Of a stretch of 53,777 nucleotides of DNA, positions 4,442-40,734 are shown piece after piece (within the stretch, counting starts at the first letter, position 1; each line of letters starts with the position of its first letter). The stretch comes from a virus. The translations under genes were made by a program, and so were the position numbers. Below the pieces are notes generated by a model. The model had not been told where the DNA came from. It saw only the letters and a list, made by a program, of their open reading frames with translations, and did not search any database. The stretch is taken from positions 1 through 53,777 of IMG/VR virus record IMGVR_UViG_3300025161_000009; one strand, 5' to 3'.

Positions 4442-6082
4442 TTATTCTGGGCCAGTTTTCCTTAGTAAACTCTTAGTAGTTTCTGAGAATCCCAGACCTA
4501 GTAATAACTCTAATAGGTCTGAGTCAGTCAACTTTGAGAGGTCTAGTACCTTGCCTGCTAGGTTCATTTCTACTAAGTCATCTATTGTACCTGGGCACTT
4601 CAAGGTAACTACCACAGGGGAGTGCTTAAGACCCATCCTTTCTACCCTATGCACAGATTGGACAAAAGTGTCCATAGAGAACGTTCTATCTACATAAACC
4701 ATAGTGTGAGTACAGATAAGAGAGTTCAGCCCGTACTTGCCTACCTCAGATGACAATACAAGTATATCCAGTTCACCCCCTTGGTACTTACTAAGGTACT
4801 CATGCCTTTTCTTTTCTGGTGTCCCCCCATGGATATAGGCTGCACGGTACTTAGAAAGGTTCTGTATACCCTCGAGTAACTGGTTGCCTGTCCCTCTCCA
4901 ATGGACCCAGATGAGCATAGGAACCTCAAGGCTTTCTGTGTCAAGAAGTTCTAGTATTGCATCTACCTTACAAGAATGATTGGTGAAACCTGTCCCCAAG
5001 TTTACTGGAGAACTAACTGCCTGTTGGAGCCTGGTCAACTTTGCTATACGGGTAGACATTGATAATCCCTTTGCCTGAAGTGCCTCAATCAGATCATACT
5101 GGATCTCCGAATATACATCTTTCTGTTGCTTGTCCATCTCAAGCTCGTAGGTCTCATAGAGAACCTTAGGTAGATCTACAACCTCTCTAAGGTTACGGAC
5201 AAACATTAGATCCCGGAATTCTGACTTGAAGTCAATCTCATGCTTGGATCCAATAATTTCCTTACCCCAGACAGTCTCCTTAATATTACAGAAAAAGTGT
5301 ATAAAGCGCCAGTAGGATAGGAAGGCGTTAGGCTCAAGTAGCTTGAATTGAGAATATAGATCCTCAACAGACCTGGTAATGGGTAACCCAGATAGTTCCC
5401 ATACCCTACCCGATCTCTGGCAGACCTTTGAGATGGACTTGAAGCGGAGTGTCTTACGATTCTTTACCAGTACTGACTCATCAAGTATTACAAGATCCCA
5501 TGCCTGGGTGTAGGCTAAGGTATTCCTAGTAACTGTGTCATAGTTGGTAACTACCCAACCTTCAAGAGGAATTGGATCTCTACTCCTGAGTACACTAACA
5601 GTTATCCCACCCCATTCTCTGCATTGAGACACCCAAGTAGGCAGTAGAGTTAGGGGTGAGATGATTAGTACCCTTTGGAACCCTAGTACTTGTGCCGCAA
5701 CTATAGAACAGGCTGATTTTCCAAGCCCAGGTGATAGTGCAAGTAAAGCTCCATGCAGGGGTGAGGACACCAGATAAGTCACTGCCTCTTTTTGGTGCCT
5801 TAGTAACTTCTCCCACTTAGGATGGTTGTTCTGGTTGCAATCTTTAGGCTCAAATCCCCAGTCCTGGAACCTACTTTTTGACTCTTCAGTAACAGTCACT
5901 GCATCCCTAAAGGTTGATAATAGTCGGGAGGCATACAGGTACACCCCAGGGAATCTCCAGAGGTGTGTCCGTATCTTCCTGCCTCCCAACCCTGGTAAGA
6001 TCCCATCCTCATTTCTTAAGTAGAGACCCTCAGAATACAGTAACCAGCCTACACCTGGTCTGTACTCAAGTTTCGCTGGCAT
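4442..6082 (-). CDS. SNF2-family DEAD/H-box helicase
   Basis: About 546 residues, superfamily 2, SNF2/Rad54 type. Motif I is LSPGLGKSAC, motif II DESVLVKN (DESx), motif III SGLPITR. The helicase C half contains WVHWRGT, YIHGGTPEKKR, LSSEVGKYGLNS and a motif VI-like QSVHRVERMG. Such proteins remodel or translocate on DNA during phage replication or recombination. The chosen ATG at 6082 follows GGAGG at the right spacing; an in-frame GTG at 6088 is less likely. Its start overlaps the preceding small gene by 17 bp. Confidence 0.85.
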   Translation of the reverse strand: MPAKLEYRPGVGWLLYSEGLYLRNEDGILPGLGGRKIRTHLWRFPGVYLYASRLLSTFRDAVTVTEESKSRFQDWGFEPKDCNQNNHPKWEKLLRHQKEAVTYLVSSPLHGALLALSPGLGKSACSIVAAQVLGFQRVLIISPLTLLPTWVSQCREWGGITVSVLRSRDPIPLEGWVVTNYDTVTRNTLAYTQAWDLVILDESVLVKNRKTLRFKSISKVCQRSGRVWELSGLPITRSVEDLYSQFKLLEPNAFLSYWRFIHFFCNIKETVWGKEIIGSKHEIDFKSEFRDLMFVRNLREVVDLPKVLYETYELEMDKQQKDVYSEIQYDLIEALQAKGLSMSTRIAKLTRLQQAVSSPVNLGTGFTNHSCKVDAILELLDTESLEVPMLIWVHWRGTGNQLLEGIQNLSKYRAAYIHGGTPEKKRHEYLSKYQGGELDILVLSSEVGKYGLNSLICTHTMVYVDRTFSMDTFVQSVHRVERMGLKHSPVVVTLKCPGTIDDLVEMNLAGKVLDLSKLTDSDLLELLLGLGFSETTKSLLRKTGPE

Positions 6083-24004: not shown

Positions 24005-25498
24005 CTATACTATCCCTGCCTCGAGTATTACTCCCCTAGTACCATCATCATCCCCAACAGCAAAAACATGATTGGGATTACAGACAAGGAGATCATTCAG
24101 TCCATTAGGTCCTGTGTTAGGCTGGATAAGCTTCCAAGAATTACCACCGTCAATAGTCCTAAGGACTCTTCCAACTCCTCCAGTGATAACATGGATCATA
24201 TACCCATTCATCTCATCCCCTTCAGGGAAGGCAAATGCTCTAACTGACCCTGTACCAGCATTAGGGAAGTTATTCAGCCTAACCCAACTCCCACCTCCAT
24301 CATAAGACATGTAGTGGTGACCCCCAGATGTACCAGCACTCCACCGACTTCTACTGTGAACCTCGATATCCAGAATGTTATTACCTGAACCTGTAGCAGA
24401 TGCAGCCGTCCAGTTCACTCCTCCGTCAATAGTGTAGATAATGACATCTCCTGCTCCACCTGCTACACCGAACTTAGGTGAGAAGAAGTCGATGCAGTTT
24501 ATCTGAGCACCACCTGAGGCTACTAAAGCAGATGTCTGCTCTTCCCAAGTTAACCCACCATCTACAGACTTGTAAATTCTACCTGTGCTTGTGCCTACCC
24601 ACATCTGGTCAGCATCATAGATGCAAAGAGCATTAGGAGAGTTAACTGCCTCAGCATTAGTAGAACCTACATTGACTGGGGATGCCCAAGATGCTCCCAG
24701 GTTATCAGAGTAAGACATCTGGAGTGGGGTCCCAGCAAGGGTCATCCTAAAAGCAATTAGCCTAACTGTTCTAGCATCCAGCATAAAGGACTTTAGAGCA
24801 GTTATATTGAGATTCACCCCAAAGGGATCTGCAGCACTTGCCGCCCATGTTTGACCTCCATCCTGGGATACAAGGACATTTGCAGAAACTCCAGCCCCAG
24901 CATCACATCCAATAGCCATGGTATTACAGGGGTCTATAATCTGTTGGGAGCATCCCTCACCACAAGTAGAATACAGAGGGGAGGTTATGGCATTAAGATC
25001 AGTTACTTCCGTAGTAGACTTCTGGGAGGTCAGAATCTCCCATAGATCAACTCTAGGAGGTCTTGCTACTACCTCGTAGGATCTTAGCATCTCATCTGAA
25101 GAATCTCTCTGGGAGATATTAGAAACAGTATCATTCACCAAGTGAGCCTTGTGGACAACCTGTCCAGTAATCCAGTTAGCAAAGATCCCCTCATTTCCCT
25201 CACATCTCTGTAAAGCAAAAACAGTGAATGGGCAATTAGCCTGGTCTATCCAAGAAGCTGTCCGAGCATGCAGTCTCTCGATAGTGAAAGAGATCAAGTC
25301 AGGTGGAGAGGGCTTCTCTCCCAGGATCTGAAAAGCTCCCTTTCCATCCCTGCAGACAATAGGGTCAAACCCTCCACGGGGGTTAGAGATCTCGTCCAAC
25401 CCAGTACAAGTCCCTAGGTAGTAAACTTCCTTGCCCGGCTCAAACTGGATAAATAAACTCGTAGCAGTAGACAGTATTACCTTTTCCTCATCTGCCAT
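24005..25498 (-). CDS. major tail protein fused to BNR/Asp-box beta-propeller (497 aa)
   Basis: The position before the tail chaperones and tape measure, and an N-terminal domain of about 170 residues, suggest the tail tube protein. Residues of about 175-497 contain six Asp-boxes (S/TxDxGxxW type) at about 211, 264, 311, 356, 398 and 448, each about 45 residues apart, as in sialidase/Ycf48-like propellers. If both assignments hold, the tail would carry a propeller on every tube subunit, perhaps binding glycans. An unrelated propeller adhesin in the tail tube position is the alternative. Confidence 0.65.
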   Translation of the reverse strand: MADEEKVILSTATSLFIQFEPGKEVYYLGTCTGLDEISNPRGGFDPIVCRDGKGAFQILGEKPSPPDLISFTIERLHARTASWIDQANCPFTVFALQRCEGNEGIFANWITGQVVHKAHLVNDTVSNISQRDSSDEMLRSYEVVARPPRVDLWEILTSQKSTTEVTDLNAITSPLYSTCGEGCSQQIIDPCNTMAIGCDAGAGVSANVLVSQDGGQTWAASAADPFGVNLNITALKSFMLDARTVRLIAFRMTLAGTPLQMSYSDNLGASWASPVNVGSTNAEAVNSPNALCIYDADQMWVGTSTGRIYKSVDGGLTWEEQTSALVASGGAQINCIDFFSPKFGVAGGAGDVIIYTIDGGVNWTAASATGSGNNILDIEVHSRSRWSAGTSGGHHYMSYDGGGSWVRLNNFPNAGTGSVRAFAFPEGDEMNGYMIHVITGGVGRVLRTIDGGNSWKLIQPNTGPNGLNDLLVCNPNHVFAVGDDDGTRGVILEAGIV

Positions 25499-27492: not shown

Positions 27493-28488
27493 CTAGGTTG
27501 GGTTAGTAGTAGTAGGACCATTCATACAATGGTTGTTAATCCAGGCATCATTAGCATCTGCAGAGCAAAAGTCATTGTAGTCACCATTTGCCGGGACAGG
27601 CAGGAGGCAGGATAAGTAGTTATCTGCAACCATATTATAACCAGACCCAGCAGACGTATTTATCCCCTGGTTAGTAGCAAGAGCTCCACCTTGGGCATTG
27701 CTGTTATAAATATGGTTACCTACAATGAAGGACTGGGTTATCTCAGGAACTATGATGGCACCTGCCAGGCACTCTATAAACCAGTTATCCCGGATAATAC
27801 AGTATGCAGATGCAGTTCCTGCAGGGTTAGCATAGATAGCATAGGAGTCTAAACTTGCAAAGAGACAGTCAGATATCTCTGCAAACCAGACATAATCTAG
27901 CTCTATTCCGATATCTATATTGGAGTCAAAGGTGCAGTGTCTAACTATCAAGTTATCCCCAAAGGTGGTAACACCATTCCAAGATGAGAAGATTGCTCTA
28001 CCCCCTTTTGTTCCACCCTGGAAGGAGAAACCCTCAATGAGGCAGTCACAAGCAGTAACAGTAATACAGGTACCCGCACCTGCAGCAGTAACTGGCTCCC
28101 ATACCACACCCACAGTACCAGCAGGGGCTACCCCTACCAGTCTGACACCTGGAACATTAAGTACAACCTCCTCCCGGATGGGTAAAGCATACCCAAGGGA
28201 TGAGTCAGAGTACTGCCAGGCATTATTACCCATTACAGCTATAACATCCCCCCGGTAGGGTTGGCATAGAGCAATAGCCCGGGCAACAGTAACTAAGGGT
28301 GCAGAAGGAAGGGTCCCATCATTAGAATCTGAGGCATTAGGGTGGTTGGGGTCAACATAAAAGACTGCCCCAGAACTATGAGATCTAAGAACTAACTCTA
28401 CATCTGAGCCCTTAACACCCATCTGACCGGGGAACCACTGAGGGAGTCTAGTCAATGGTATTGGCCAAATAACGTTTCCACCAGGCAT
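27493..28488 (-). CDS. right-handed parallel beta-helix protein (331 aa)
   Basis: Begins with a segment AVFYVDPNHPNASDSNDGTLP...PLVTVARAIALC, the entry pattern of pectate-lyase-like beta helices. Repeated short strands with turn Asn/Asp residues follow (LIVRHCTFDSN, ISDCLFASLDSYAIYAN, IIRDNWFIECL, FIVGNHIYNSN). It sits in the head module between the major capsid and connector genes, so it may be a head fibre or decoration protein rather than a tail spike. A second such protein is encoded at 32492-34006. Confidence 0.75.
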   Translation of the reverse strand: MPGGNVIWPIPLTRLPQWFPGQMGVKGSDVELVLRSHSSGAVFYVDPNHPNASDSNDGTLPSAPLVTVARAIALCQPYRGDVIAVMGNNAWQYSDSSLGYALPIREEVVLNVPGVRLVGVAPAGTVGVVWEPVTAAGAGTCITVTACDCLIEGFSFQGGTKGGRAIFSSWNGVTTFGDNLIVRHCTFDSNIDIGIELDYVWFAEISDCLFASLDSYAIYANPAGTASAYCIIRDNWFIECLAGAIIVPEITQSFIVGNHIYNSNAQGGALATNQGINTSAGSGYNMVADNYLSCLLPVPANGDYNDFCSADANDAWINNHCMNGPTTTNPT

Positions 28489-28787: not shown

Positions 28788-29930
28788 TTAAGCCGCTGTT
28801 CCACTTGAGTAGTAGGCACCTCGGGCATCAAACAGATTACCCTGAGTACCGTCAATGTAGGTCCCCCACTCGTCATGGACTTTGACGACCACATTTCCAG
28901 TAGCAAAGTCACCCATAATAGGAGGAACTACCCCACCCCCACCCGTCAGAGAAGTGATACTCTCAATGTCTGAGCGCTTCCGCAGGAGTAAGGGGGCAGG
29001 CACACCCTGCCGGCGGGCGAGTACAAAGGGTACAATCCCATTTGCTCTCCAATCAGAAAAAGCCCACCAAGGCAGGTTAGGAGCTACTGCAGCAATAAAG
29101 GGATTCTCAATCGGAACAAAAGTCCCTTTCACTACGTTGACTGCATTGGTCGCCAGCTCAGGAACTAGGGTGCTATTCTGGATGGTCGCTACAGTATCAA
29201 CTAGACCTGAGGGGAAGACAATGTACCTAAGAGAAGCATTGATTGGCTCACCTCGGTCATTCAACCGCTGGTTGAAAGCCATCCGTGCCTCTGAGATCCG
29301 GGCGGTAGTCAACCGACCAGTGGTAGAGTATAAAGCACCTAAAGCAATCAAGCGGGCAACAGTCACAGCGTTGGTCATCATCCGAGAGACAAACTTCTCA
29401 AGGCTTCTCCGAGCAGCACGTCCCATTTCCATAGCGGTATCAGCAAAGTACCCCAAGTCGTCATTGACCAGTGCTTCCATTGAGAAGTCGAATTGCTTCT
29501 CAAACTTATAGACCCGGTACTGGCGCTTGGTAGCATCTACCATAGAACCAGGGCGAGCCTCGCCTTTCTCACCCACATATTCCAAGTCATCTAACCCAGC
29601 CCGGCGCTGGTAACGGGTGACTGTCATAAAGTTGGGTAGAGTATCTGGCTTTACTAGAGGCTCAAACTCAAAGCTCTTTTCTTGATAACCTGGAACCATT
29701 TGGCGCTGGACAAACTCTTGAAGGGCATAGGTAAAGTCTGCAGAGGTCATAACCTCTTGGAGTTTTGTCTCAGGGGTATCAAAGCCTCCATACTCGTTAA
29801 CAGTAACCCCGTTGAGGGCAGTATCCAGAAAGCGGTACATATCCTTAACCTCCTGGATCCTAGCCTCAGGGGCGATCCCTTCAAGCCTAGCAAGACGATA
29901 GTTCATAAGTAAAGACACGATTCTACGCAT
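28788..29930 (-). CDS. major capsid protein (380 aa, HK97 fold inferred)
   Basis: Follows the protease/scaffold and decoration-like genes. The N-terminal 90 residues are helical, with a possible delta-like segment; the body (EKQFDFSMEALVNDDLGYFADTA, RSLEKFVSRMMTN, LRYIVFPSGLVDTVATIQ, NPWWAFSD-like loops) resembles gpT/HK97-type major capsid proteins. Clean reading, with no internal frameshift. I rate the major capsid assignment high from gene order and length. Confidence 0.8.
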   Translation of the reverse strand: MRRIVSLLMNYRLARLEGIAPEARIQEVKDMYRFLDTALNGVTVNEYGGFDTPETKLQEVMTSADFTYALQEFVQRQMVPGYQEKSFEFEPLVKPDTLPNFMTVTRYQRRAGLDDLEYVGEKGEARPGSMVDATKRQYRVYKFEKQFDFSMEALVNDDLGYFADTAMEMGRAARRSLEKFVSRMMTNAVTVARLIALGALYSTTGRLTTARISEARMAFNQRLNDRGEPINASLRYIVFPSGLVDTVATIQNSTLVPELATNAVNVVKGTFVPIENPFIAAVAPNLPWWAFSDWRANGIVPFVLARRQGVPAPLLLRKRSDIESITSLTGGGGVVPPIMGDFATGNVVVKVHDEWGTYIDGTQGNLFDARGAYYSSGTAA

Positions 29931-30547: not shown

Positions 30548-32341
30548 TTATTTGACACCGAAAGCTCGGTCAATCTCTTCTAACCGTTGGACAATATCTT
30601 CCTCCTTAACCCCTTCAGGAGTAGAAGAAGAGCCTCCCACAGAAAAGGGTCTCCCTGAACCAGTAAGGGCCTTCAGGTACTCAACTTCCTTAGTTATAGC
30701 AGTACCGAGGTCTTCCTCAGTCTCATAGGACCCTTCTGCCAGTCGCTCCTGGGATACAGTCGGAAGCTTTGTCTCCCCTAATAACTTCTTAATAGTTTCT
30801 TTATCCAGCATAGTAGTATCTCCTTCAGTAATAGGTTCGTTAGGACTGGTACCATCCGGGAACCGCACCTGGGATCCCTCCTCGTTCTCAGATACCCTCA
30901 GTGCATGGCCACCTGCCCCTGCCCGGGTAACCCAGTCAACTGATTCCACATTAAGTATATCTAAAATCTTCTTGCCTTTTCTTCCTCCTTCCTCAAAGGT
31001 TGCCCTTTCTGCTACAGCGTCTGCAAGGATAGAGCATTCCATCTTTTCTAATAAACCTTTAGAATCCAGGTTGATAATCCTTTGGGCAAAACTGGGGTCA
31101 TGGACAGCAACCCTTACTATAGGAGCACCATCCGAGGTATAGCCCTTCACCCCAGTTATAGTAGAGACCCAAGTTCTAGTCGACTTCTCACCAGGCTTAT
31201 GGTCTGTCTCATACATCTTGGCCCCCACGAACTTCTCAACTGTCTTGTTTGAGGCAAGAAGTTCCTTGGAGTAATAGTGGTTATCTCTCTGGTTACCCCA
31301 ACCTGGTTTAATTAGAACCACGTCCATCTCCAGGGCATTAGGTTCGGGTTGAACCTCCCCAACAAGCACAGGTGATCCGTCAAAGCTCTCAGAAACTTTT
31401 TCTACAACTACCATAGGCTCAGGTTCGTTACTCTCAATACTAGGCTCAGGTTCAGGTTCATTACTCTCAGTACTAGATTCGGATTCAGCCTCTACCTCCA
31501 AGTCCTTCCATGTCTTTCTAAATGTCTCCCTAAGTGCCTTCACTTGAGATAAAATTGACTTAGGTAGGACCCTCTCAGATAGAAGGGCATCCAGTGCCTT
31601 AACGGCATTGATAACTGCAGACTTCACAGTAGCAGCCTCACCTGCCTCTGTCTGGATATTCTCTATCTCTTTAGGGATCATCTCAGAGTACTCATAAACT
31701 AGATTATATAGTAACTCAATCCTATCTAAATCTGAATCTTCAGGGTTACAGTACAAGACATTCCAAATTAAACTCTGAAACTCATTATTTATCTCTTTGA
31801 GCTCCTCTGCTAGGGTATTTAGTTTCTTGTAATTCTTAAGATCCCTGAATGTGATTATGGTCGATGGAATATACTCAATTTCTGTCTGCTCTGGACCAGT
31901 AAGGTACTCCTCTCCAACCTTTTTCTCCTCCCCACGCCAAGTAGTAGTCCCAGACCACTGGTCCTTCAACCAGGCACAGAGTACAGTTGGGTCATCAATG
32001 CCTTCTACATCCTGGAGTTTACTCACACAGGTAGTAACACTACCATCTGCCCAATCCCCAAAAGTATCAATGAGGTTCTGGACTCCTCCAACCTCAGAAA
32101 TTCCAAGTACCTCGTGCAACTTCTTTACCAGTAGAGACTTAGGTTTGTAACCCTTAGGAACCTCAGGGGCTTTCTCAGTTTTAACCTTTGTAGGCATCCC
32201 TTCACCTTCTTTCTGGTGTTTGAAGAACTGGACTTCCCTTTCCCGTTTCTTTGCTTCTTCAGGAGTATCATAAGGTCCACCCAGTTTCTTAGACCCATCT
32301 CTAGAATAAAGGTACCACTTACCAGAAATCTTCTTAATCAT
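30548..32341 (-). CDS. prohead protease/scaffold-like protein (597 aa)
   Basis: The N-terminal WYLYSRDGSKKLGGPYDTPEEA motif occurs at the start of many phage head proteins. A helical, acidic, coiled middle (about residues 160-320, with Glu/Ser/Pro repeats) fits a scaffold. The C-terminal third (about 335-500) contains ETDHKPGEKSTRTWV (a His candidate) and a VDWVTRAGAGGHAL block, as in prohead proteases. The remainder ends in a scaffold-like helical tail. The catalytic residues cannot be fixed. It starts at the left edge of the palindromic element (32345-32442). Confidence 0.65.
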   Translation of the reverse strand: MIKKISGKWYLYSRDGSKKLGGPYDTPEEAKKREREVQFFKHQKEGEGMPTKVKTEKAPEVPKGYKPKSLLVKKLHEVLGISEVGGVQNLIDTFGDWADGSVTTCVSKLQDVEGIDDPTVLCAWLKDQWSGTTTWRGEEKKVGEEYLTGPEQTEIEYIPSTIITFRDLKNYKKLNTLAEELKEINNEFQSLIWNVLYCNPEDSDLDRIELLYNLVYEYSEMIPKEIENIQTEAGEAATVKSAVINAVKALDALLSERVLPKSILSQVKALRETFRKTWKDLEVEAESESSTESNEPEPEPSIESNEPEPMVVVEKVSESFDGSPVLVGEVQPEPNALEMDVVLIKPGWGNQRDNHYYSKELLASNKTVEKFVGAKMYETDHKPGEKSTRTWVSTITGVKGYTSDGAPIVRVAVHDPSFAQRIINLDSKGLLEKMECSILADAVAERATFEEGGRKGKKILDILNVESVDWVTRAGAGGHALRVSENEEGSQVRFPDGTSPNEPITEGDTTMLDKETIKKLLGETKLPTVSQERLAEGSYETEEDLGTAITKEVEYLKALTGSGRPFSVGGSSSTPEGVKEEDIVQRLEEIDRAFGVK

Positions 32342-32491: not shown

Positions 32492-34006
32492 TCACGGCGC
32501 ACAGCCTCCTACTATACTATTGGTATCCTGCCCAGTTCCAGCTACCCAGGCTGCTACTGTAGAATAGGTAGGTGCCCCCAGCTTGAATGAGATGGAATTA
32601 GTATCAAAGCAGTTGTAGTCGCTAGAAAGAAAGGCAGGAACTGAGGTTAGATAGATAGCAGAGGCAAACCCCAATCCAAAGACAACCCTAGAGAGGGTTA
32701 TAGACACCCCTGCATTAGTTCCATAAACTACCCTGGATGGACCTATGAATGAGGTTCCCCTTACATTAGAGTCAGTGACAGTGATTGTCCCAGCACCAGT
32801 ACTATAGATAATTAACGAGTTATCCAGAGAAGCATCAACATCTAAGTTAGAAACAGAAACAGTAGCACTACCAAAGTCTACTGCCCTTGATAATGTCCCA
32901 GTACATTTGAACCCATCTATAGTAGTAAGGATCCCCAAACTAGCCCCAAAAGTGGTATTGTGGACCCAACAGTTACTTATCACTAGAGAAGTAGCATTAG
33001 ACTGAGCGAATCCAATATGGATATTCTCACAGTATGAGTCAAGGTAGGTTATAGTACCAAAGTTACCACTGACGTTCCTATGCCCTGAGAACCCATTCAT
33101 ACCAAACTGCTTGGCAGACATTAAGCATCTACATCTAAGGAAGACTGAAGTCTCCCCAGATGGGCTATCATCATTGAGTACAAACATGGTAGCTGAGGCA
33201 AGATTGTAATATGCCTCCTGGGCTGTAACATCTACCAGGTTAGACCCTCTCCTTACATAGAGATTATGCTTATTCCCATAGGATGCTAGGCAACCTATAA
33301 CAGTAGAAAAAGGTCCTCCTCTTAAACTTCCGTCTTCATGCAGGTTACTCTTGGTATGGATTCCAATAAACTTGCAGTAAGACCTAGAGTACCCATCTAA
33401 CCCAAACTGCCTATGAGTATATTCATAGGTCTTTCCATCAACCCTTGGGTCAGTAGAACCAGTAGAGTGGATATATAAAGTGATGGTACCAGAGGACCCT
33501 GATGGATACATAGACCCTGGATTGGCATCACAGTTTGCTATACTAGACTGCCTAGTAAGATACTGGGAGTTAACATAGACATTTAACCATGACTTTCCAG
33601 GGAACCAAAGTGGGGTAATAACACATTGGTATACGTTAGTGTACCCACCAGTCTTTGTCCACTCACCTGGGGTAATGACATTAAGAGCATTCAGTATAGG
33701 AGGAGCACCAGAACCGTATGCCATGACAGTGCACCCATCCCCAGGGACGTCTAACTGTTCTCTCCACTCACTACCTCTAGCAAGCCCCACAGATTGGCCA
33801 GCACCCCAAACTGTCTCAACCTGAGCAATGGTTTGAAAGGCTTTATCTTTCGACTTGCCTGTATTAGAATCAGACCCATTCACTGAGTCTACATACCAGT
33901 CAAACTCTTCCTCTTGGACAATCGAGGTAGGGTAAAAACTTACAGGTCTAGTTTTCCTCAGTACTCGGTTACCTTTTGGGTCAACCCTTCTGGTTATCCC
34001 AAACAT
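32492..34006 (-). CDS. second beta-helix protein (504 aa), pectate-lyase-like
   Basis: Begins with DWYVDSVNGSDSNTGKSKDKAFQTIAQV, the common beta-helix entry motif, then many right-handed helix coils (IGCLASYGNKHNLYVRRG, VFLRCRCLMSAKQFGMNG, VVYGTNAGVSITLSRVVFG). No obvious catalytic Asp triad was found. It sits between the minor head block and the protease gene, unusual for a tail spike; a head fibre or surface adhesin is suggested. Confidence 0.7.
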   Translation of the reverse strand: MFGITRRVDPKGNRVLRKTRPVSFYPTSIVQEEEFDWYVDSVNGSDSNTGKSKDKAFQTIAQVETVWGAGQSVGLARGSEWREQLDVPGDGCTVMAYGSGAPPILNALNVITPGEWTKTGGYTNVYQCVITPLWFPGKSWLNVYVNSQYLTRQSSIANCDANPGSMYPSGSSGTITLYIHSTGSTDPRVDGKTYEYTHRQFGLDGYSRSYCKFIGIHTKSNLHEDGSLRGGPFSTVIGCLASYGNKHNLYVRRGSNLVDVTAQEAYYNLASATMFVLNDDSPSGETSVFLRCRCLMSAKQFGMNGFSGHRNVSGNFGTITYLDSYCENIHIGFAQSNATSLVISNCWVHNTTFGASLGILTTIDGFKCTGTLSRAVDFGSATVSVSNLDVDASLDNSLIIYSTGAGTITVTDSNVRGTSFIGPSRVVYGTNAGVSITLSRVVFGLGFASAIYLTSVPAFLSSDYNCFDTNSISFKLGAPTYSTVAAWVAGTGQDTNSIVGGCAP

Positions 34007-34972: not shown

Positions 34973-37900
34973 TTAGTCCTTCCTTGCCACAAAAGCAGTA
35001 AAATTCCCACCAAGGATAACCATCTCCCTCTCACTTAGACACCCAATACCAGACATAGCAGTAGAAAAGATGTTAGAAATAGGAACCTTTATACCAAGGG
35101 CTACATTCCCAAATATCTCAGTTGTACCAGGTCTGGTAGTCCAGGATTCTAAGCAGTTACCCTGGTACTCAACAAAGGTCCCAAAGTCCACATCTCCAGG
35201 GAAGTGGATACCTCGGTAAAGGTAAATCTCATCATCCCCCTTGTACCCCTGGGACTTGAAGAAGTCTTGAGTCTCATCATAAACTGCTCTAATAAACTTA
35301 TCATAAGCCCCAGTTTCCCTCCAAGTCTCCGCTGCCTCCCATTCCTCTAGAAGGTCCATCTTATCTGGTATCCAAGGTGCAAAGAGAGAGTCATACCTTC
35401 TAGTAGCACCCTCCATCCTCTGCATTGCCTCATTTGCTTCCTCAGTCATCCCTCTACTTAGATAATAGGAGGCATCATCCCCTGCCTTGACAATTTCTCT
35501 GACTAGCATAGCACCTTCTTCTACTGCTGCATACCTCTCTTTCTGCCACTCTGAGAGTTCCGTTCCAAAAAACTCAGATGCTGCTAGTTGGAGGTTGAGT
35601 GAGGCTGGGCTATTATCATTTGAAGATCCAGCCCAAGACTTTACCAGATGGTTACATGTTTCATAGTCTAAACCAGATCTGCCTGACAACCCCTTTATTA
35701 CCATATCTTTTGTCTTAGATGAGCCATATTCATCCATCCACCTGTGAGTAAGATCAAGGTGTTTCTGGTCCACTGGCCAGTACCCTGGACTAAACCTATT
35801 AGCTAGGACTTTAGCCCGGTCCTCAGCATTAAACATCTTTATCTGCCCTCTAGGAGTTTTGCCCCCTACCCCTCCTAGCTCCTTCTCCCTGTCTCTCAGA
35901 TCCCTGTAGAGTGCAGCTTTAGCCTCAATCTCATCCCTACTACCACTAGTATAAGAACTCACTCCTATCTTAGAAAAACCTCCACCAGGTGCTGACCCTC
36001 CATGCTGGCCAGGAATTCCATCATGCCCCCAATTGCCAGAAGTAGGTCCACCCTCGGATGTTATCTCTAGAGTAACTTTGATAAACTCAATGGGCTCATC
36101 CTCAAGGGCAACAGCCGGAAGAACCTCCTGTATTCTAGAGTACTCCTTGCATTGCTCAGGGGTGTAGTAGAACACAGATTCATCTTGACCCTGCACCATA
36201 CCCAACTTCCTGTAGAACCCCATAGCAGATTCTGCAGATACTAGTATCACCCCAGAGCCTGCCTTTGCCGCTCTGTCTACTATATCCTGCATAATTTGCC
36301 TACCCCATCCACTTTCACGGGTAGCAAGGTCCATGATCTCAATGTACTTACCATCAGGAATTCCCTCTCCAAAAGTGCTCTTTACCTTGTCTGGGCTCAA
36401 CTGCCTTATCTGGGCAACTGCTGCCAGTTTACCCTCGCTATCTACAATCGCCACCCCTTTAGCACCTTTGGACTTCCACCCAAAGGAGGTAGCCCGAGCA
36501 CCAATAGATGCCCGTTCACCCTCCCATCCCTTTACCTCCTCATGGAAGGCGTCTCCCTTAGGAGACCCGGGCTGGAAGGAGACTGGTTTGCCTGAACTAG
36601 CAGACCCTCCATGTTGTCCAGGTACTCCTAGGTGGCCAAAGTTACCAGAACCTTGACCACCTTCAGATAAACTGGAAGCATCTGACTCTCTCAACTGACC
36701 ATTGTATACTCCTGAGGCAGACAAGAACTCATCCCGGGTAGCCCGTATAATCCCCCTGCCTTCACTCTTTGAGTCATCTGCCTGCTCAAACCAAGATATC
36801 TCCTTGCCATCCTCAACCTTTATTCTGTCATCAAGTATAAGGTTCTGGAGACGCTTGAGCTCCTTTGTATTGAAGTACCCAGTCATTATAGCAACACTCT
36901 TATCTGGGAACTCTCTTACCCTGATAACCCCAGCCTTGAAGATCTTGTCTATTGCCCCCTTCATATTACCAGGTTCCTGGTCCTCCTTGGTCAGACCTAA
37001 TGCCTCGGGAGTTGAGGTATTCTTAATGTAGTTGAAGTGGTCCCCTTTTGCATCAATGAGTATCCCATCTGGATTTACTAGATATGCCTTTCCAATGCTA
37101 CTGGATGAAATCTCATCATAAGAACTAACTGCTCCTTCTATCTTGGGTGCAGACCCACCATGTTGACCAGGCACTCCCACATGGCCAAAGTTACCAGAAC
37201 CAGGACCACCTTCAAACAGAGACAGGTACCACAGCTCATGGGCAACCTCAGTAGCTTGGGGACCTGTGAAAATATCCCCATCAGGGTCAAGCAAGATATG
37301 CCGACAGCGGTACCCCTTGCACTCAAAGTTCTCATTCCCAGATTGCCCTGGGATTAGCCCATTCTCTACCCACCACCTGGCAGGATAGGTCTTCCCCTTG
37401 AGGTACTGGCATGTACTACAGGACTCCTCTCCATCTTCACCCCCAAAGGTCAAGGGCATCTCAAGTGCCCCCCGAACCCTTGCCTCAGAGTAAATACCAT
37501 CTAAGGTGTGGGTGTACCCCTCAGCCCTTGCCCAGATCCACTCTGCTACCTCATCTGGGTCTAATTCCCTCTTGAGTGACTTAAGGTCTTCCCACAGGCC
37601 GTCTGCATACCCTGACTCAGTTTCTATTCTACCTACTAACCAGGTAACTGCCTCATCCGGTATCTCCCCTCCCTTAGAATCTGCCCAGCCTGTATAGAAA
37701 GTTATGGTAAAGGCGTCATTAACAGCCCGGCGGAACTGGTTCCGGAAGCGGGTTATACTAGGATTTCCAGGGGAGGTCAAGTAGTCGAGCATAATATAAG
37801 ACAGAGTCTCTTGATACTCTAGCTTTATCTCTGATAACGATTGACCCAAAGAGAACTCCCCTGCCTTAGGGGCGAATCTCTCTAAAGGTCTTGAAAACTC

Positions 37901-39070
37901 CCGTAAGGATACACTCCCACCTAAAGTAGAAACTTTAGTTGCTAACATAAGAGCATCCCAAGTATCCTGGAGGTACCCATTAGTCCCATCCCACTCTATC
38001 TTGTCAGACTTAGGGAGTTTCCCCTGGTCATACAGATTCTGGAGCTTTCTAAGGGTTTTAGTGTCAATCCTCTCAGTTTCTAAGTTGAGATAACTGGGGC
38101 CTCCAGTAACCTTCACACTCCTTACCCTGATAAACCCAGCCCTCTCCACCTTAGTAAGGGGAGATCCCCTCCGTAGATCTTCTGGTTTCAATCCAAAGAC
38201 TTCAGGGTTCCCCCTCACAAAGTCCTCATGGTCACCCTCACCTTCAACCCCTGGTTGGTTTGTATCTACAAGCTGCCCTCCAGGGGCTATAAAATAAGAA
38301 GCAGAAGTAGCCCCTTTTAGATCTACTTTAGTTATCTGGTCAAAGGTCTCCTTATACTCTATAGAAACCGATCCAGGAGTGGATCCCCCTTGTTGCCCTA
38401 GTATCCCGGAATGCCCAAAGTTGCCAGATCCAGGGCCTCCCTCGGATAAATCCTCAGGGTCTATCAGACGGGGTTTCCACTGTCTCATCCCTCCCCCTAG
38501 GATGAGTATCTGTTGAGGAGAGAACACTCTAACCTCCCCAGGCATGACAATAGCATCATACCCAAGAGATCTCAATGCTCTAGAGTAATCCCCCATCAGA
38601 CCAGGGTCCAAACCCCTCTTCCCCATGTACTCTAGGACATCTGGGTTCTCCCACCCCCCATCAGTCAGGACATTATAGGGGTTAGATGAGAAGACCTTTA
38701 CCGCAACTACCATTCCATCATCCCCAGTATAGTCAGCAGCATACTTGGGGTCAAAAGAAAAAGAGATCCCCTCATCATCATTTAGTTCATCCGTGGACAC
38801 TTGGAAGCCTTGGTTGATAATATCCTTGTAGTGAGGAGACCCATGGTACAGAGTATCTTTTACCCTGCTCTTCTCTACGAACTTCTCTCCATCAGAGTCG
38901 AACCCATACCGGGTACCAGTAGGCAGTAACCTGCCCACTTTAGGTGGTCTAACAGGCATACCCCCAGTACCTGCTTTTGACCCTCCCTGCTCACCTGGGA
39001 TACCCTCATGCCCCCAGTTTCCAGAACCGGGGCCTCCTTCTACTAACTTTTGGTAGAGGCTCTCCCTCAT
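34973..39070 (-). CDS. giant multidomain minor head protein: two ART domains, MuF-like domain, GNAT (1365 aa)
   Basis: Five Gly-rich linkers of the GGPGSGNFGH type (residues about 11, 210, 620, 803 and 1006) separate distinct domains. Residues 65-193 resemble an ADP-ribosyltransferase of the polyvalent-protein type (LYHGSP, FDPKYAADY, GYDAIV). 236-375 and 645-790 are two related copies of an unknown domain. 375-617 is an SPP1-gp7/MuF-like minor head domain with CSTC and CKGYRCRH cysteines. 825-975 is a GNAT fold (VAIVDSEGKLAAVAQI, SGWGRQIMQDIVDRA, FYRKLGM). 1250-1360 is an R-S-ExE ART (Arg1286, Ser1309, Glu1347 and Glu1349). It follows the portal gene with a 4-bp overlap. Packaging and injection into the host are inferred. 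Confidence 0.8.
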   Translation of the reverse strand: MRESLYQKLVEGGPGSGNWGHEGIPGEQGGSKAGTGGMPVRPPKVGRLLPTGTRYGFDSDGEKFVEKSRVKDTLYHGSPHYKDIINQGFQVSTDELNDDEGISFSFDPKYAADYTGDDGMVVAVKVFSSNPYNVLTDGGWENPDVLEYMGKRGLDPGLMGDYSRALRSLGYDAIVMPGEVRVFSPQQILILGGGMRQWKPRLIDPEDLSEGGPGSGNFGHSGILGQQGGSTPGSVSIEYKETFDQITKVDLKGATSASYFIAPGGQLVDTNQPGVEGEGDHEDFVRGNPEVFGLKPEDLRRGSPLTKVERAGFIRVRSVKVTGGPSYLNLETERIDTKTLRKLQNLYDQGKLPKSDKIEWDGTNGYLQDTWDALMLATKVSTLGGSVSLREFSRPLERFAPKAGEFSLGQSLSEIKLEYQETLSYIMLDYLTSPGNPSITRFRNQFRRAVNDAFTITFYTGWADSKGGEIPDEAVTWLVGRIETESGYADGLWEDLKSLKRELDPDEVAEWIWARAEGYTHTLDGIYSEARVRGALEMPLTFGGEDGEESCSTCQYLKGKTYPARWWVENGLIPGQSGNENFECKGYRCRHILLDPDGDIFTGPQATEVAHELWYLSLFEGGPGSGNFGHVGVPGQHGGSAPKIEGAVSSYDEISSSSIGKAYLVNPDGILIDAKGDHFNYIKNTSTPEALGLTKEDQEPGNMKGAIDKIFKAGVIRVREFPDKSVAIMTGYFNTKELKRLQNLILDDRIKVEDGKEISWFEQADDSKSEGRGIIRATRDEFLSASGVYNGQLRESDASSLSEGGQGSGNFGHLGVPGQHGGSASSGKPVSFQPGSPKGDAFHEEVKGWEGERASIGARATSFGWKSKGAKGVAIVDSEGKLAAVAQIRQLSPDKVKSTFGEGIPDGKYIEIMDLATRESGWGRQIMQDIVDRAAKAGSGVILVSAESAMGFYRKLGMVQGQDESVFYYTPEQCKEYSRIQEVLPAVALEDEPIEFIKVTLEITSEGGPTSGNWGHDGIPGQHGGSAPGGGFSKIGVSSYTSGSRDEIEAKAALYRDLRDREKELGGVGGKTPRGQIKMFNAEDRAKVLANRFSPGYWPVDQKHLDLTHRWMDEYGSSKTKDMVIKGLSGRSGLDYETCNHLVKSWAGSSNDNSPASLNLQLAASEFFGTELSEWQKERYAAVEEGAMLVREIVKAGDDASYYLSRGMTEEANEAMQRMEGATRRYDSLFAPWIPDKMDLLEEWEAAETWRETGAYDKFIRAVYDETQDFFKSQGYKGDDEIYLYRGIHFPGDVDFGTFVEYQGNCLESWTTRPGTTEIFGNVALGIKVPISNIFSTAMSGIGCLSEREMVILGGNFTAFVARKD

Positions 39071-40734
39071 TCTCTAGAAACTCTCCTGTAGGCTTCCATA
39101 ACTCTCTGTCTGAACTCTAAGAAAGCCTCTTGGGCTTGGCGCTCCTTATGACCCTGCTCAGAAGGTCCAGTTTGAGCTTGAGTAGAACTACCCACACCGA
39201 AAGCCTCATCTGTAGTTAACTCTTTAGCATCTACTACGCCTAGAGTCTGTAGGATGAGATTCCAAGAGGTTGCCAGTATCTTCTTTGCCGTCTCCTCAGG
39301 CACCTTATCTGTGAGCAATGCCCCAACAGCCCCAGTTACCCCAGATACAAGCTGGGCAAGGTCTGTCTGGAGGAGCTTATCCGTTGAGATCTCAGCATCA
39401 TAGGTCTTATAATTTGCCCCATTGTACTCCTCTTGAGCCCACAATACAATCCTAACCATCTTGCGGAATTGGGCTGCCCAGAATTTCTGGTAGCGTGAGA
39501 ACTGCCGGTACATGGGGCTCTCCATGGATGAAGCTGTTGCTAACCGGTAGGCATCCCCAGCTCCCATCCAGTGTGGGTAGACCCCTCCCCCCAATCCTGC
39601 CATGAGCAGCAGTGCCTCCCCGTCTGTCTTTGCATCACCAGCAGACGTCCCTAAGTTCAGGTTAGAAAGTTCAGCGGACTGGTTCTCAAAGAAGGTAGAA
39701 CCTGCGACTGCTGGCGGGTTAGTCTCAAGAGAGTTAGCAGCAGAAAGGGCAGATTGCATCTTTGCCCTCATTGCCTCAACTGCCCTGGATCCCCCTTGAA
39801 CCTTCACCTTCCGGACAAACATAGCAACAGCAGCAGCTACAGCTGCTCTATCTTCTCTAAACTTCTTATGAGCCCGTGACCAAGGTGCCCCAGCAGACAT
39901 CAAAGGCCAACCTCGGTCCCCACCTTTCCGATTGTGGGCAATATGCAGGCAGAGTACTGTAGTATTCTCCCGCATCTGGTCCGCCCGGATGGCACCCCTA
40001 GGTAGGACCTTCTCAACCAAGGGTACTACCTCACCTGAGGAGGTTATATACTCCTCGTCTAGAGCCCCTGAGCACACCGCTAACCAGTCTGGGTAGTAAA
40101 GCTCCTTGAACTCTCCTGAGGTAGTATTGTACGATCTATGATAAAACAGAACCTGGTCCTTGTCATCTGGGTGGGTTATAATCTCAGTTATTTCCTTGGT
40201 ATCTACCTCTCTCAAGGTTGCCTTACCATCGAGGGTAGAGATAAAAAAGAGTAAGAACTTCTCTCCATCTACTAGGATATCTTCAGACATAAACTGCAGT
40301 GAGTCATCTGCAAGGATGGGTTGGTTCCGGTCTGCTTTCCAGAACTCATTCCAGGGTTCCTGAGCATCCTCATCTACAGGAGAGATAGCAATATTCTCTC
40401 CAAACCCAAAGTTAGTCCACAACCAGACGATCCACTGGGAGATAACGTCATACCGGAAGAGGCGCCTGCACTCATCAACTGCTCTGAGTCGCTCCCCCTC
40501 AGAACCCTCAAGGGTATTATACCCTACAGACCCCACCAAGTCGTAGCCCATAGAGTTTATAAAGTCTTGGAGCAATGCAGAGTCAATCTCACGTAGTTGG
40601 GCAAGCAAGACATCTGGGGTCATCAGATAGGGACCTTCCATGTAGGCTTCATAGAGCTTCCGAGTGGCCGCCTCAAGGCGAGCCTTCTCTTTACCCAGTA
40701 TTAGCTCAGTCAATCGTTCTCTGATAGTTACCAT
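39067..40734 (-). CDS. portal protein (555 aa)
   Basis: Between the large terminase and minor head genes, the standard portal position. Features include an N-terminal acidic helical start, the segment YDVISQWIVWLWTNFGFGENIAI, a beta-rich wing region (FLLFFISTLDGKATLREVDTKEI) and long C-terminal helices. The length fits the SPP1/phage_portal family. No protease domain is fused. It starts 2 bp after the terminase stop. Confidence 0.8.
   Translation of the reverse strand: MVTIRERLTELILGKEKARLEAATRKLYEAYMEGPYLMTPDVLLAQLREIDSALLQDFINSMGYDLVGSVGYNTLEGSEGERLRAVDECRRLFRYDVISQWIVWLWTNFGFGENIAISPVDEDAQEPWNEFWKADRNQPILADDSLQFMSEDILVDGEKFLLFFISTLDGKATLREVDTKEITEIITHPDDKDQVLFYHRSYNTTSGEFKELYYPDWLAVCSGALDEEYITSSGEVVPLVEKVLPRGAIRADQMRENTTVLCLHIAHNRKGGDRGWPLMSAGAPWSRAHKKFREDRAAVAAAVAMFVRKVKVQGGSRAVEAMRAKMQSALSAANSLETNPPAVAGSTFFENQSAELSNLNLGTSAGDAKTDGEALLLMAGLGGGVYPHWMGAGDAYRLATASSMESPMYRQFSRYQKFWAAQFRKMVRIVLWAQEEYNGANYKTYDAEISTDKLLQTDLAQLVSGVTGAVGALLTDKVPEETAKKILATSWNLILQTLGVVDAKELTTDEAFGVGSSTQAQTGPSEQGHKERQAQEAFLEFRQRVMEAYRRVSRE

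Follow-up and report, generated by a model that had tools for sequence, protein, structure and literature searches.

A conserved 20-residue junction in phage head-gene blocks as a candidate cleavage site for releasing injected effectors

Polyvalent proteins of phages and conjugative elements, multidomain effectors that are encoded with virion genes and include ADP-ribosyltransferase (ART), GNAT and MuF fusions, have been proposed to be injected (Iyer et al. 2017, PMC5512222). A separate body of work concerns proteins processed within the phage head: T4 internal proteins have a capsid-targeting sequence, of which 10 residues suffice, and T4 gp21 is reported to remove it by cutting after L/I-X-E (PMC9026906). 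Furthermore, the packaging signal of DarB from phage P1 lies within its first 30 residues (PMC9024508). Both ideas, polyvalent proteins that are injected and ejected proteins that a head protease processes, are already known. Here, we describe a locus at which the two appear to meet. The window analyzed, 53,777 bases long, is the entire IMG/VR virus record IMGVR_UViG_3300025161_000009, and encodes on its minus strand (34973-39070) a 1365-residue protein, P0001, punctuated by five copies of a glycine-rich junction. From sequence comparison, we consider that P0001 is probably a precursor polyprotein of head-carried, injected effectors, cut at X|GG (X being the residue before the junction) by the head-maturation protease of the phage. 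The open-access literature searched yielded no shared junction that unites the two in a cleavable effector polyprotein; the text of the motif is likewise absent from that literature, subscription papers lying outside the search.

The five copies of the 20-residue sequence GGPGSGN[FW]GHxGxPGxxGGS start at residues 12, 211, 621, 804 and 1007 of P0001, bearing out an earlier prediction, made from the window alone, of five GGPGSGNFGH-type linkers. DNA-pattern scans of IMG/VR and a genome collection gave more than 140 junction loci, itself a lower bound, and in these the 20-residue motif has at least 414 matches, at least 351 of them unique, from at least 137 contig clusters. A reversed-DNA control yielded one match, which places the count well above chance. 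Among the copies, essentially no variation is seen at the His or at three of the Gly positions.

All parts of P0001 are given here in their order from the N-terminus, with minus-strand coordinates. An N-terminal propeptide, MRESLYQKLVE (residues 1-11; 39038-39070), has a predicted cut at E11|G12 and is followed by junction 1, LVE|GGPGSGNWGHEGIPGEQGGS (residues 12-31; 38978-39037). Module 1, an ART-PolyVal-like domain with a LYHGS motif (residues 32-210; 38441-38977), ends at junction 2, LSE|GGPGSGNFGHSGILGQQGGS (residues 211-230; 38381-38440). Module 2 (37211-38380) comprises a domain that we call X1 (about residues 245-400) and a MuF-like domain (about residues 401-620), and is closed by junction 3, LFE|GGPGSGNFGHVGVPGQHGGS (residues 621-640; 37151-37210). 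Module 3 is X2, a paralogue of X1 (residues 641-803; 36662-37150); junction 4, LSE|GGQGSGNFGHLGVPGQHGGS (residues 804-823; 36602-36661), separates it from module 4, a GNAT acetyltransferase domain (residues 824-1006; 36053-36601). Finally, junction 5, TSE|GGPTSGNWGHDGIPGQHGGS (residues 1007-1026; 35993-36052), precedes module 5, a helical region with a DRAT-like R-S-ExE ADP-ribosyltransferase (residues 1027-1365; 34976-35992). The linkers had been expected to mark the module joints and do so at five joints, the joint between X1 and the MuF-like domain being without one.

The principal evidence for cleavage lies in the residue immediately before the GG (P1), which falls into the classes D, K, L/A, R or E and is uniform inside a phage while varying across phages. 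We restricted the comparison to copy pairs having unrelated sequence on both flanks. Among 777 such pairs from 81 phages, P1 agreement within a phage was 0.80 (0.87 with L and A merged), against a permutation expectation of 0.18 (standard deviation 0.03), and the observed value was reached in none of 1000 permutations. The neighboring positions P2 and P3 agreed in same-phage pairs at 0.14 and 0.29, respectively. Copying of linker DNA was considered as a cause of P1 constancy and rejected, as synonymous codons at P1 are not shared: their likeness was 0.47 against the 0.47 expected from codon usage. Codons as varied as codon usage predicts point to selection on the protein rather than to recent DNA copying. 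The pattern is the trace that a phage-specific protease specificity would be expected to leave. In the window, the context is LxE|GG at four of the five junctions and TSE|GG at the fifth.

These observations bear on the possibility that the junction is a flexible, recombination-friendly linker and that the modules stay fused as one large polyvalent protein. Such a linker would fit a Gly-rich sequence located at module joints, the cargo swaps seen there and the diversity of what is joined (366 non-redundant modules form 178 families, 140 of them singletons). However, the fixed His, Asn/His-aromatic and RPG residues would be superfluous for flexibility, and the combination of P1 constancy within a phage with saturated synonymous codons indicates selection at the protein level, not DNA homology kept for recombination. 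Moreover, in many single-module proteins the junction is N-terminal, preceded by no more than a short propeptide, and has nothing to join. We regard a permanently fused protein as unlikely.

Cleavage by the head protease finds further support in the major capsid protein (MCP). Since few linker phages had a match to the PF25209 and PF05065 capsid families or to protease S78, MCPs were collected by profile search. In phages for which an MCP was found, the P1 class at the predicted boundary between MCP propeptide and core mostly equals that of the junctions. Thus, TRFD|SAEDASVFF accompanies RRFD|GG in the D class and MPVK|ANEL accompanies PPVK|GG in the K class. In the L/A class, FRAL|GPLQDKAQ occurs with PRAL|GG, LRTL|SPLSDKAQ with IRTL|GG, and FRAA|SPL with RVA, RHA or RTA|GG. 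All five R-class capsid sequences have FVSR|A, FVGR|A or FVAR|A, with V-x-R|GG junctions, and an E-class phage combines a T4-like capsid (LSE|TSF) and a gp21-like protease with the junction LFE|GG. The MCP of the window (28788-29930, minus strand) has a predicted propeptide boundary at KLQE|VMTSADF, and that of a sister phage (the contig of locus L204) at HLAE|VMTSGDF; when the two are aligned, conservation starts exactly after KLQE| and HLAE|. One phage elsewhere carries tandem paralogous MCPs (L168:2018-3232 and 4670-5893, minus strand), both with an N-terminal FVSR|A.

The enzyme responsible in the window may be encoded upstream of the MCP, where a 597-residue protein (30548-32341, minus strand) is predicted to be a head-maturation protease with scaffold. 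This assignment draws on a weak match to phrog_29592, on gene order, and on two possible catalytic residues, a His within TDHK and a Ser within ECSILAD, both regions being conserved in the sister phage; no protease match was obtained from Pfam.

The correspondence with the capsid also helps to weigh two further explanations. Were the junction a binding or packaging tag for a head component, P1 would be part of the contact and not a cut site. That the 20 residues hardly vary between phages whose proteases and capsids differ is in keeping with such a tag, as is the position of the tag-bearing open reading frames (ORFs) within the head gene block: in loci with a capsid gene, 89/89 lie on the MCP strand and 85/89 upstream of the MCP, at a median of 4.3 kb. 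Yet the conserved part is universal, whereas P1 is phage-specific and matches the capsid propeptide boundary. A protease accounts for this combination better than a binding site does, and we hold the contact explanation to be improbable. Alternatively, the junctions might be self-cleaving or serve as substrates of a host protease, and the GG after the cut together with the invariant His could suggest autoprocessing. Neither route, however, predicts that P1 should change from phage to phage (D, K, L/A, R, E) in step with the capsid boundary, and we give cleavage of this kind very little credence.

Many junctions are preceded by a short N-terminal peptide, and such propeptides are alike inside a phage even though the downstream parts are unrelated. 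Their mean local score is 20.7 within a phage vs 12.6 between phages, and 15% of pairs within a phage score at least 30 vs 0.3% of those between phages. In one phage, ...YTLIKDISSEVLTILFE| and close variants form the propeptide of three proteins. These peptides resemble the T4 capsid-targeting sequence (PMC9026906), to which that of P0001 is likened, as well as the P1 phage DarB packaging signal (PMC9024508). T4 internal proteins and Alt, an ART, offer a close parallel, as they are carried in the head and ejected, and have a short N-terminal propeptide cut after L/I-X-E (PMC9026906). They differ in being single proteins without a GG junction, whereas several effectors share one ORF here; nor is the present junction confined to one specificity, spanning five P1 classes and several capsid and protease types. 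Similarly, a gp21-like protease processes the head proteins that phiKZ and SPN3US eject, cutting after a short Glu motif (PMC9026906), a likeness that extends to P0001 insofar as its cleavage is predicted. For these phages, the portion of PMC9026906 drawn on describes no shared 20-residue junction or multi-effector polyprotein.

We therefore propose the following model as the preferred reading of P0001, that of a protease-processed precursor. P0001 would enter the prohead by means of its short N-terminal peptide, the MuF domain or both. The head-maturation serine protease would then cleave at X|GG, directly in front of every junction, its P1 specificity being the one used to trim the MCP; in the window, this specificity would be (L/I)xE| and T4-like. 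The freed products would be the ART-PolyVal-like ART, X1-MuF, X2, GNAT and the DRAT-like ART, each bearing a junction peptide at its N-terminus. As separate effectors with presumed enzymatic activity, they would be ejected with the DNA.

Several points weigh against this model. All support for cleavage is comparative. The MCP cleavage sites are predictions that were first spotted by eye, and scanning MCPs singly, blind to class, gave weak support: the class of the phage itself ranked first in 14/35 (label permutation p 0.0008), with small individual z-scores. For G016 and L005, both of the L/A class, no matching MCP site is evident. P1 residues are mixed in a minority of phages (L010, L084 and L022), and junction 5 of the window has T in place of L/I at P3. 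Furthermore, a protease that reads P3-P1 leaves 20 conserved residues after the cut unexplained. The presence of the same 20 residues across phages with different proteases indicates that the junction peptide may have a second role. It is tempting to speculate that GGPGSGNFGHxGRPGxxGGS serves tailed phages universally as a cargo tag, kept on each freed effector whatever the protease, capsid or host, and that it has a further task once cleavage is done: it might, for example, steer ejection via the portal and tail, or keep the effector associated with the DNA. We put this forward tentatively, as a possibility that we would not favor. Were it true, phages could swap effectors freely, adapting merely P1.

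The identity of the modules is consistent with an effector cargo. For the C-terminal module, 22 homologous segments in other junction-bearing phages gave an alignment of 23 rows with the window, in which R1286, S1309 and E1349 (with E1347) are nearly invariant columns. Pfam DRAT (PF07357) is matched by 15 of the 23 at E <= 0.01 (best 2.6e-13), over the R-S-ExE core. The residues proposed earlier for a C-terminal ART (Arg1286, Ser1309 and Glu1347/1349) are borne out by this alignment. The window copy alone is sub-threshold (19.3 bits, cut-off 25) and, unlike DraT itself (dinitrogenase reductase ADP-ribosyltransferase), stands in a head-gene context. Its structure model reached a predicted local distance difference test (pLDDT) score of 84.8. 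A Foldseek search of the PDB with this model gave no significant match, the results being dominated by the helices of the model; weak fold matches include the ART toxins 5urp, 2j3x and 8s2n. By sequence, the PDB held no ART relative for either the N-terminal or the C-terminal ART. The GNAT domain is supported: for the isolated segment PF00583 scores 23.0 bits (cut-off 20.7), and in a scan of the whole protein it falls below threshold. X1 retrieves X2 at E 2.7e-5, which makes them paralogues and agrees with the expected two copies of one domain; the homology search detected no relatives of either beyond the other.

The N-terminal and MuF-like domains are less secure. The former matches ART-PolyVal over nearly its full length at E 0.001, below threshold (20.3 bits, where the cut-off is 31.2). 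A structure model built from its sequence alone was poor (pLDDT 34.5), and an ART-like fold is weakly supported here. The MuF segment has no Pfam match, PF04233 (Phage_Mu_F) included. Its assignment as a putative MuF-like head domain draws on its position after the portal, on a weak hhalign match to a MuF profile of linker phages, in which the Cys motif is aligned (E 0.02), and on the sister phage, which has a domain 49% identical to it.

At least two predicted conflict-related domains (GNAT and the DRAT-like ART, with weaker evidence for the N-terminal ART) lie among virion and packaging genes, as in polyvalent proteins. That P0001 is a polyvalent, head-carried effector agrees with its domain content, gene position and relatives; what changes is the part given to the linkers, which we propose as cut sites and not mere joints. 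By the same comparison, the original prediction of one capsid protein bearing two ARTs would give way to a precursor of separate products. Unlike in P0001, where one conserved junction with a predicted cut bounds each module, no linker is mentioned in the main text of PMC5512222. The specific domain order, singled out earlier together with the two ARTs as a good target for a new host-takeover system, is not maintained in the sister phage, where the MuF domain recurs and is followed by a junction (IGE|GG) but then by different, unrelated cargo. For the sister phage, this comparison shows that modules are exchangeable at junctions. The sister-phage cargo itself (L204:7763-8290, plus strand) contains HNHP...S..D, a JAB/MPN-peptidase-like motif, without a Pfam match.

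MuF polymorphic toxins of temperate phages join a MuF-like head domain, putative in P0001, to variable toxin domains that include ARTs, as P0001 would (Jamet et al. 2017, PMC5576092). They differ in that PMC5576092 discusses neither cleavage nor a linker, while cargo here is also attached to portal-like ORFs, to propeptides and to further proteins, with a constant junction motif. Across 150 modules scanned with Pfam, the commonest families were ADP-ribosylating toxins, zeta toxin, DRAT, MuF and GNAT, with Ntox50, CdiA_C and ART-PolyVal also matched. Up to 11 copies occur on a contig among the matches listed, and the longest effector string among the loci listed is a 2650-residue ORF with ten R|GG junctions (L157:3262-11211, minus strand). 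An ORF of about 3050 residues (L131:679-9840, minus strand) has at least three DRAT-like ART segments, and a portal-like ORF (L187:8184-11330, plus strand) has an apparent intein insert with Hint and HNH-like motifs.

Whole bacterial genomes with a junction match have one or two copies each, against zero control matches. Among the matches listed, most named hosts are Clostridia; other phyla contribute isolated cases, and one match is in a Methanothrix metagenome-assembled genome. Junction-bearing prophages occur, for example, in Desulfosporosinus sp. PR (NZ_JAVHUW010000048.1) and Clostridiales bacterium CCNA10 (AP018533.1). On the Methanothrix contig (L028), ORFs bear the junction, for which an archaeal virus or misbinning is possible. 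No isolated phage with the junction was found, Faecalibacterium phage FP_Brigit and Bacteroides phage Versailles being without it in the regions examined.

If the proposed processing holds, the junction would be a widely shared device for packaging and releasing injected phage effectors, making polyvalent injected proteins and head-protease maturation one processing system. In many uncultured phages, one sequence signature would suffice to list injected effectors and to mark their mature ends, and the residue before GG would provide a cheap read-out of head-protease specificity. Additionally, it would suggest a transferable signal by which proteins could be loaded into phage heads, and the packaging and release of many different effectors by phages would become directly testable.

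The surroundings of P0001 are those of a head gene block. Its ORF directly follows the portal gene (39067-40734, minus strand; phrog_10963, E 2.2e-27), its ATG overlapping the portal stop codon, and the same order is seen in the sister phage. Terminase lies upstream, and the predicted protease-scaffold, MCP and tail genes lie downstream, so that P0001 sits between portal and capsid genes. As a whole protein, P0001 has no close homologues in INPHARED or IMG/VR and matches no PHROGs family. The head and tail block of the window also encodes, on the minus strand, a right-handed beta-helix protein (27493-28488), a further beta-helix-like protein (32492-34006) and a BNR-repeat protein (24005-25498).

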